From positions 1-37,945 of the forward strand of contig JASEFU010000012.1 in assembly GCA_030018455.1 (NCBI GenBank): DNA of 37,945 nucleotides, written 5' to 3'. Each line of letters opens with the position of its first letter. The stretch's first letter is position 1. Below are positions 3,807 through 5,354 of this stretch, piece by piece. The position numbers were made by a program, and so were the translations under genes. The notes under the pieces were generated by a model that had not been told where the DNA came from, searched no databases, and was given only the letters and a program-made list of their open reading frames with translations. This stretch comes from Dehalococcoidia bacterium (lineage in GTDB: Bacteria; Chloroflexota; Dehalococcoidia; DSTF01; JALHUB01).

Positions 3807-5081
3807 CTAGTCGATCAGTTCTCCCCGCAGGGCGCCGTCCTCGCGATGCAGGAGCCTCGTCATGGTCAGCGTGTTCTCCAGCGGGCTATCGCTGGGAGCG
3901 AGCACCCTCGCGTAGTTGCCGGTCAACCCCTCCCAGAGTCCGCCGTTCTGCTTCTCCCACAGCACAAGCGACGTCGTCCCTGCGAGACGCTCCAGGAAGC
4001 GCGCGTGCAGCCGCTCCGCCAGCGCCAGCAGGCGTGCCACGCGTTCACGTTTCACCGCCTCAGGCACAGGGTCAGGCATCCCGGCCGCCAGCGTGCCGGG
4101 CCGGCGCGAAAAGGGGAAAACGTGAACACCGGAAAGCTCCGTCTCTTCGCAGAGACGGCAGGTCGCCTCGAAGTCGGCCTCCGTCTCGCCCGGGAAGCCG
4201 GCGATGACGTCGGTGGTGACGGCGGCGTCGGGAAGCGCCTCGCGGATGTCGCGGACGACTCGCCGGAAGTCGTCCGACGTGTAGCGGCGGCGCATTCGCC
4301 CCAAGACGGCGTCGCTGCCGCTCTGCAGGGGGATGTGGAAATGACGGCAGAGGCGGGGGTCGTCCCACAGCCGCAGCAGCGCGGGCGAGAAGTCAGGCGG
4401 TTGCAGCGACGAGACGCGGATGCGACGGATCGGCGTCTCGCGCAAAACGGCGGAGACGAGCGCGTGGAGGCTGTCGCCGGTGTCACTGCGGTACGCGCCC
4501 AGTTGCGTGCCCGTCAGCACAACCTCGGTCGTGCCCGCTTCGGCGCGGGCGCGCACCTCCCGCAGCACCTCTTCGCGCGGAACGCTCCGTTCCGGGCCGC
4601 GGGTGCGCGGCACGATGCAGAACGAGCAGACCTGGCTGCAACCTTCCTGGACCTTGACGAAGGAGCGGGTGCGCAGCGGGCAGGCGGAACAGGAGCGTTC
4701 GTGCGCTGTTGGGGCGAGGCCGCCTTCCATGAGCAACGCGGCGGCCCTGCGCTTGTCCCTGCCAGCGAGCGCGAAATCGGCGCCGGCGTCCCGCATCACC
4801 TGCGCCCCTTCTGCCTCGACGGCGCAACCGGCCGCGATGATCTTCGCTTCGGGCGACAGGCGGCGCGCCAGGCGCACGTAGTGTCGCGACTTGCGGGAAG
4901 CGACGTGGGTGACGGCGCAGGTGTTGATGACGAAGGCGTCAGCGGGGGCGGCGCGGTCGGTCAATTGCCAGCCGGCGGCGGCCAGGTCGCGCGCAATCGC
5001 TTCCGACTCGGCCTGGTTGAGCTTGCAGCCCAGGGTCAGCACGGCGGCGCGTTTGGGGGCGGACAGCGAGAATCGCTTCAC
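3807..5081 (-). CDS. mtaB: tRNA threonylcarbamoyladenosine (t6A37) methylthiotransferase MtaB
   Basis: A radical-SAM methylthiotransferase that converts t6A to ms2t6A at position 37 of ANN-decoding tRNAs. The UPF0004 domain has cysteines C19 (LGCKLNQAES), C55 (NTCAVT) and C86 (AGCAVE). The radical-SAM cluster is C148-x3-C152-x2-C155 in EGCSQVCSFC, followed by IVPRTRG. LGCKLNQAE separates MtaB from MiaB and RimO. A CSAC pair at 131-134 just before the radical-SAM core is seen in related proteins. The 424-residue length is normal. The start is a GTG at 5081, behind a strong promoter at 5114-5141, and it heads the operon mtaB-amaP-scpB-ylxP. Confidence 0.95.
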   Translation of the reverse strand: MKRFSLSAPKRAAVLTLGCKLNQAESEAIARDLAAAGWQLTDRAAPADAFVINTCAVTHVASRKSRHYVRLARRLSPEAKIIAAGCAVEAEGAQVMRDAGADFALAGRDKRRAAALLMEGGLAPTAHERSCSACPLRTRSFVKVQEGCSQVCSFCIVPRTRGPERSVPREEVLREVRARAEAGTTEVVLTGTQLGAYRSDTGDSLHALVSAVLRETPIRRIRVSSLQPPDFSPALLRLWDDPRLCRHFHIPLQSGSDAVLGRMRRRYTSDDFRRVVRDIREALPDAAVTTDVIAGFPGETEADFEATCRLCEETELSGVHVFPFSRRPGTLAAGMPDPVPEAVKRERVARLLALAERLHARFLERLAGTTSLVLWEKQNGGLWEGLTGNYARVLAPSDSPLENTLTMTRLLHREDGALRGELID

Positions 5082-5170: not shown

Positions 5171-5281
5171 CTAGCTGCAGTGGGTGAAGCCGCAGATGGG
5201 GCACCGGATGCAGCCCTCGCCGTGAACCAGCGGGCCGCCGCAATCGGGGCAGCGATGGGAACTGATCCTTCTCCTTGACAC
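5171..5281 (-). CDS. 36-residue zinc-ribbon microprotein, NrdJ-tail-like
   Basis: A small reading frame with GTG start at 5281 and TAG at 5173-5171. An AAAGGAGG ribosome binding site sits six bases upstream, and a perfect -35 box lies further up. The peptide has C11-x2-C14 and C27-x2-C30 (CPDCGGP, CPICGF), with extra cysteines at 24 and 35, so it should bind one zinc ion. The pattern CPxCG...GC..CPxCGxxxC resembles the C-terminal tail of B12-dependent ribonucleotide reductase (NrdJ), but no reductase body precedes it. It could be a free-standing relative of that tail or an unrelated zinc ribbon. Its promoter holds an SOS-box-like palindrome, which suggests a damage response. Function unknown. 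Confidence 0.72.
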   Translation of the reverse strand: MSRRRISSHRCPDCGGPLVHGEGCIRCPICGFTHCS

Positions 5282-5325
5282 GGCGCGCCTCCTTTCTAGA
5301 GCATCTGTTCTATTTACTACTCGCA

Positions 5326-5354
5326 ACAGTAACAGAACAGGCGTTCGTTGTCAA
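5326..5354 (-). promoter_or_regulatory. Promoter of the zinc-ribbon gene
   Basis: On the minus strand: TTGACA (5354-5349), a 17-base spacer and TACTGT (5331-5326). The -35 is perfect, and the -10 keeps the key T1, A2 and T6. The predicted start is around 5319, about 38 bases before the GTG. Confidence 0.65.
5334..5347 (-). promoter_or_regulatory. LexA/SOS-box-like operator between -35 and -10
   Basis: The minus strand reads CGAACGCCTGTTCT, that is CGAAC-N4-GTTCt. The Gram-positive LexA (DinR) box is CGAAC-N4-GTTCG, so nine of ten conserved positions match. It lies wholly inside the promoter spacer, where a repressor would block polymerase. A further half-site, CTGTTCT (5305-5311), forms a seven-base inverted repeat with AGAACAG (5334-5340). 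The LexA motif of this lineage is not known from this window, so LexA control is inferred. Confidence 0.5.

Follow-up and report, generated by a model that had tools for sequence, protein, structure and literature searches.

Gene, promoter and neighboring genes

The window, i.e., the whole analyzed stretch of 37,945 nucleotides from a Dehalococcoidia bacterium, carries a tiny unannotated gene on the minus strand (5281-5171). It is comprised of 36 codons, with a GTG start codon (5281-5279) and a TAG stop codon (5173-5171), and encodes the peptide MSRRRISSHRCPDCGGPLVHGEGCIRCPICGFTHCS. The homologues have a comparable start; the first-pass annotation needs correction in that the start codon is GTG. 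The two CxxC pairs noted there are present, but the six cysteines form a single array, C-x2-C-x9-C-x2-C-x2-C-x4-C.

The promoter has a perfect −35 hexamer, TTGACA (5354-5349, minus strand), similarly placed in most homologous loci, and the Shine-Dalgarno sequence AAGGAGG (5294-5288, minus strand), 6 nt upstream of GTG, is strong; both agree with the initial reading. A predicted LexA/SOS box, CGAACGCCTGTTCT (5347-5334, minus strand), lies within the −35/−10 spacer, where it had been placed before, and is kept in homologues. However, the −10 element itself is poor, as the −10-like TACTGT (5331-5326, minus strand; spacer of 17) has three of six matches to TATAAT by our reading of the sequence. 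In addition, a second predicted box, AGAACAGATGCTCT (5311-5298, minus strand), located between the promoter and the ribosome-binding site, had been overlooked. Both boxes were recognized with a matrix built from lexA promoters, and paired boxes recur in homologous loci.

The downstream neighbor is an mtaB-type tRNA methylthiotransferase gene (3807..5081, minus strand; TIGR01579, 381.7 bits, above the cutoff). It has its own promoter-like sequence, TTGACA (5141-5136) and TATGAT (5119-5114), and probably lies outside the transcription unit of the peptide gene. The adjacency is seen again in several relatives. Still, co-transcription with mtaB is unlikely to be the main point, given this promoter-like sequence and the different neighbor in some relatives. 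Genes that we take, by sequence recognition, to encode glycerate kinase, Asp23-like and ScpB-like proteins also recur near the peptide gene. Directly upstream, at 5515-5396 (minus strand), is a gene for a 39-aa microprotein with a single transmembrane (TM) segment, VPELGIAVLVVAVLLLTDQQRVQWLLEKMQQLLQWLSSE, with a good ribosome-binding site and its own sigma70-like promoter. It is kept in this position in several relatives (e.g., MTEFGLAILLIGALLITDRERLEWVSAKVRELSEWLST), has no SOS box, and gave no match in family-model searches.

Conservation and likeness to the NrdJ tail

Besides full-length NrdJ, a search of 148 related genomes yielded stand-alone homologues of the peptide that are spread over many members of the order and the class. 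There are about 50 of them across Dehalococcoidia, the assignment to Dehalococcoidia or Chloroflexota being that of a named genome collection. Across 400 evenly sampled genomes of the phylum, the matches listed included clear stand-alone copies from Dehalococcoidia only; most other listed matches fell in NrdJ-sized frames, and a few in short frames. All six cysteines are present in each of 54 aligned 25-codon cores; the search pattern demanded five of them and left the sixth free. This last cysteine is missing from two further homologues outside the 54 cores. In the core alignment, pN/pS was 0.32 in the coding frame compared to ∼1.5 in either of the others; third codon positions carried twice the variation of the first and second ones. 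Judged from this pattern of substitutions, the peptide gene is real, and this frame alone is subject to strong purifying selection, which bears out the proposed 36-residue microprotein. The first-pass annotation had named a lack of homologues with the same start and cysteines as an argument against itself; the homologues share the cysteines in addition to the comparable start. Many of them have an arginine-rich N-terminus.

A scan of viral sequences mainly matched NrdJ tails or unrelated ribbons. One IMG/VR phage contig carries, among structural-looking genes, a 75-aa stand-alone NrdJ-tail-like ORF ending in CPDCGGPLVPGGGCPVCAVCGWSECS (L238:4873-5099), and nrdJ is absent from the listed ORFs around it.

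The best curated match of the peptide is NF006417, a model of B12-dependent ribonucleotide reductase (RNR), with E=5e-8 at positions 728-759 of 759. The match is well under the whole-protein cutoff, as expected of a fragment corresponding to the last 32 positions. The runner-up NCBIfam family followed at 1.4e-4, and every Pfam ribbon match was under its cutoff. The cysteine spacing is that of the NrdJ1 tail of the source genome, CPDCGSLLVFAEGCLVCRSCGYEKCG, and the resemblance to the NrdJ tail suggested earlier thus stands. By these comparisons, the peptide is a homologue of the C-terminal zinc/redox domain (CRD) of NrdJ. It is not fused to the RNR catalytic barrel, as the stop-to-stop frame spans 59 codons and the peptide occupies 36 of them.

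The mean identity is 58% between the stand-alone peptides and NrdJ1-type tails, and 75% among the stand-alone peptides, which group together (the best split misplaces three sequences, with support of 0.77 over 25 columns). The motif CP[VILA]C is invariant in the stand-alone peptides, while local NrdJ1 tails read CRSC or similar. A recent copy of the 3' end of the local nrdJ is ruled out by this separate cluster and by consistent differences from NrdJ1 tails of the same genomes. From the alignments, the peptide gene looks old and vertically inherited.

The role of the CRD cysteines has been studied in the Stackebrandtia NrdJ, where all six tail cysteines are needed for electron transfer with TCEP; four were assigned to zinc and two to a redox pair (PMC5704485). 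Transferring these roles, we predict that C11, C14, C27, and C30 are the zinc ligands and that C24 and C35 form the redox pair. The AlphaFold model is a small zinc-ribbon-like beta fold of moderate confidence (mean pLDDT 81, pTM 0.46). Sequence and fold searches of the PDB with the peptide gave nothing convincing; the fold neighbors were zinc ribbons of TFS4, L37ae, Csl4, and RNA polymerase, none of them significant.

The peptide shares with the NrdJ CRD the six-cysteine array C-x2-C-x9-C-x2-C-x2-C-x4/5-C and an end one residue past the last cysteine (PMC5704485, PMC9669993), the core reading CPICGFTHC in the peptide and CRSCGYEKC in the local NrdJ1. Unlike the CRD, it is a free 36-aa chain with its own predicted SOS promoter and has neither the catalytic barrel nor a TSCPD/IscU-like domain.

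LexA boxes at the peptide gene and elsewhere

The source genome encodes both LexA (lexA at C3:57862) and RecA (recA at C1:345677). To score the boxes, we used a matrix derived solely from the lexA promoter sites of genomes of the class other than the source genome, which read AGAAC-N4-GTTC[T/G] with the consensus AGAAC-N4-GTTCT. A LexA motif differing from GAAC-N4-GTTC in this lineage had been named in advance as counting against the SOS assignment; the lineage motif is the above consensus. At the source locus, box 1 scores 17.1 bits, the maximum being 18.7, and box 2 scores 11.3 bits. In the 220 nt upstream of the first cysteine, a box of at least 8 bits was found in 52 of the 57 peptide loci, compared to 5.5% of control windows from the same loci, and two boxes in 48 of the 57, compared to 0.1%. 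The proposed LexA site is thereby borne out by an independently derived motif. Among the five box-less loci, L204 is an NrdJ fragment, L041 is cut by a contig end, and L033, L042, and L213 have open frames so long that their promoters may fall beyond the scanned region.

The expectation that the same box would precede other genes of the genome held in part. It is present before lexA (AGAACATGTATTCG), and the same layout is found upstream of two Y-family (IMS) polymerases; the promoters of recA and nrdJ1 in the source genome have no box, while recA promoters of several relatives do. An identical box at C8:11938 was rejected as a chance site, since it falls within a coding sequence, presumably that of a GreA-like protein, a name given by sequence recognition. 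The motif is not in excess genome-wide: with at most one mismatch, we counted 21 sites per strand versus 30 for the reversed control pattern. Hence, the argument for LexA rests on conservation, not on counts.

This absence of over-representation and the box-less recA would fit operators of another repressor or chance palindromes, with the gene lying outside the SOS response. Against such an explanation stand the origin of the motif in lexA promoters, the paired boxes in most of the peptide loci, and the boxes at the Y-family polymerases and at recA of relatives, and we consider it very improbable. Taken jointly, and judged from the sequences, a conserved gene and its predicted control by LexA seem close to certain.

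The palindrome GAAC-N4-GTTC inside a promoter is also known from the LexA regulons of Bacillus and Mycobacterium (PMC3323433, PMC4234289), from which the present case differs by the consensus AGAAC-N4-GTTCT and by the paired operators on a microprotein gene. We found no description of the SOS regulon of Dehalococcoidia in the literature searched, nor any mention there of a stand-alone NrdJ tail as a member of a LexA regulon.

SidA and YneA are products of very short LexA-controlled genes and are membrane proteins; SOS microproteins of the DinQ/SidA/YneA type act on the membrane or on division. Escherichia coli dinQ is likewise a very short gene under LexA control, but DinQ is a membrane protein (PMC3567139), and the peptide looks like a soluble zinc/thiol ribbon.

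Boxes were also seen at other genes. A second candidate SOS microprotein, the 30-aa single-TM peptide MGSLIVAVWVVAAALYLVWQWWSRELADGA, is encoded at G000:C9:36407-36318 (minus strand; loci L152/L286), with two LexA boxes, AGTACATGTGTTCT and CGAACAGATGTACT, flanking its promoter; its homologues in G001, G002, and G004 likewise have paired boxes. The likeness of this peptide to SOS division inhibitors of the SidA type is limited to size and topology. Boxes in a promoter layout further occur in G000 at C5:163137 and C5:169820 (L154) and at C1:422592 (L095). The genes behind the boxes at C5:163137 and C1:422592 had no match in a family search. Downstream of the box at C5:169820 lies a gene for a coiled-coil protein, along with one for a phage major head protein (phrog_212, E=8e-78), and the box and gene content together predict a LexA-controlled prophage or phage-like cluster.

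NrdJ genes and the possible role of the peptide

Two adjacent nrdJ genes lie on C2 of the source genome, while the peptide gene is on C12. Both NrdJ paralogues have cysteine-rich tails of their own, one of the NrdJ1 type and one of a second type, CMNCGWIMTRSGTCYRCENCGSTSGC. Therefore, the peptide is an extra copy and does not replace a missing tail. The separate polypeptide with a zinc finger is reminiscent of NrdJb of split class II RNRs, but NrdJb carries an IscU-like domain and its partner NrdJa is tail-less (PMC9669993), whereas the peptide is a ribbon only. Accordingly, the peptide does not belong to a split RNR of the NrdJa/NrdJb kind, as the NrdJ paralogues are tailed and the peptide lacks a TSCPD domain. 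Of the 29 peptide-bearing genomes, 28 were found to have NrdJ, the lone exception being 77% complete, but NrdJ is in any case common in the class.

In eight of the 23 peptide-bearing genomes analyzed for it, nrdJ1 has an SOS box of at least 12 bits, compared to ∼0.8% in controls (upstream regions L247, L250, L252, L253, L255, L256, L261, and L266). Examples are CGCACAGACGTTCTGGTATAAT, seen in both G005 and G007, and AGAACGTGTGTTCT, from G038. Five of these eight genes come from one family, so the genomes are not independent and the binomial value makes the evidence look stronger than it is. Many Dehalococcoidia seem to have class II RNR itself in their SOS regulon, and the nrdJ1 boxes support, at the level of sequence, a role of the peptide linked to RNR.

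We suggest that the peptide gene forms an SOS unit by itself. With LexA dimers on its two operators, the microprotein would be repressed, and DNA damage would lift this repression. The product would be a free C-terminal cysteine-rich zinc ribbon of class II RNR, in which zinc bound by C11, C14, C27, and C30 would bring C24 and C35 close to each other at one end. For NrdJ, this ribbon would be an additional dithiol shuttle, free to diffuse and working in trans, that re-reduces the active-site disulfide and so provides more dNTP during repair. In the Stackebrandtia enzyme, electrons pass between subunits and tails can serve neighboring subunits, while neither a thioredoxin nor a glutaredoxin could be identified as the donor (PMC5704485). 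The most likely reading is an accessory redox shuttle (or modulator), induced by the SOS response, that acts on NrdJ in trans; action through NrdJ of any kind is fairly probable, and the redox shuttle is our leading explanation, with slightly less than even confidence. Several observations speak against the shuttle. Both paralogues are already tailed, so it meets no obvious need; the separately expressed Stackebrandtia tail restored no activity in trans, although the protein aggregated (PMC5704485); nrdJ1 of the source genome has no SOS box, and the peptide gene does not lie near nrdJ; similarly shaped zinc ribbons bind RNA polymerase or ribosomes; and two homologues lack the last cysteine. 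On the whole, the first-pass annotation, which had proposed tuning of dNTP supply or electron delivery in trans, is partly supported.

The same anatomy would be expected of an SOS-induced inhibitor or modulator of NrdJ, a free ribbon competing with the enzyme's own tail for the active-site cleft or disturbing CRD-dependent oligomerization, so that dNTP supply is throttled or its balance changed while forks are stalled. The tails already present on both NrdJ proteins would fit, as would the fact that the CRD mediates oligomer formation (PMC5704485). Yet a pure competitor would not require both redox cysteines, which are invariant in the 54 cores, and the boxed nrdJ1 of some relatives argues for more NrdJ activity, leaving inhibition rather unlikely. 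The ribbon might also act independently of RNR and, once SOS is induced, bind to nucleic acid, to RNA polymerase, or to the ribosome, with the variable basic N-terminus as the contact. While the fold neighbors and the arginine-rich N-termini point this way, the extra cysteine pair in its NrdJ-like placement is foreign to those ribbons, and the top NCBIfam match is the NrdJ tail, not one of the Pfam ribbons; we regard such a role as unlikely. Finally, a peptide that arose from an NrdJ tail and has since lost its tie to NrdJ could be a general thiol/metal protein of the damage response, such as a zinc store or a disulfide reductant for repair enzymes. The separate cluster with its invariant CP[VILA]C, absent from local NrdJ1 tails, agrees with this; however, such a protein, which we consider quite improbable, leaves unexplained the LexA operators at nrdJ1 in several genomes and the near-constant company of NrdJ, common as NrdJ is in the class.

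Class II RNRs of the CRD type occur widely. Thioredoxins and glutaredoxins, tried as reductants with a single such enzyme, did not work (PMC5704485). A conserved free copy of the CRD under predicted SOS control is a concrete candidate for electron delivery or control in trans, and would tie DNA-damage signaling to dNTP synthesis in Dehalococcoidia. The sequences suggest that DNA-damaged cells may supplement dNTP synthesis with a free redox tail. We tentatively propose that in Dehalococcoidia a damage-inducible diffusible thiol microprotein is an in-trans electron carrier for class II RNR that raises the SOS dNTP supply; if so, the peptide would supply part of the reducing route of CRD-type NrdJ enzymes.

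In one clade (L161, L164, L166, L175, L177, L179, L183, and L190), the ribbon is preceded by QLR[LMF]xLF, which we take to resemble bacterial beta-clamp-binding motifs and which could tether the peptide to the replisome.
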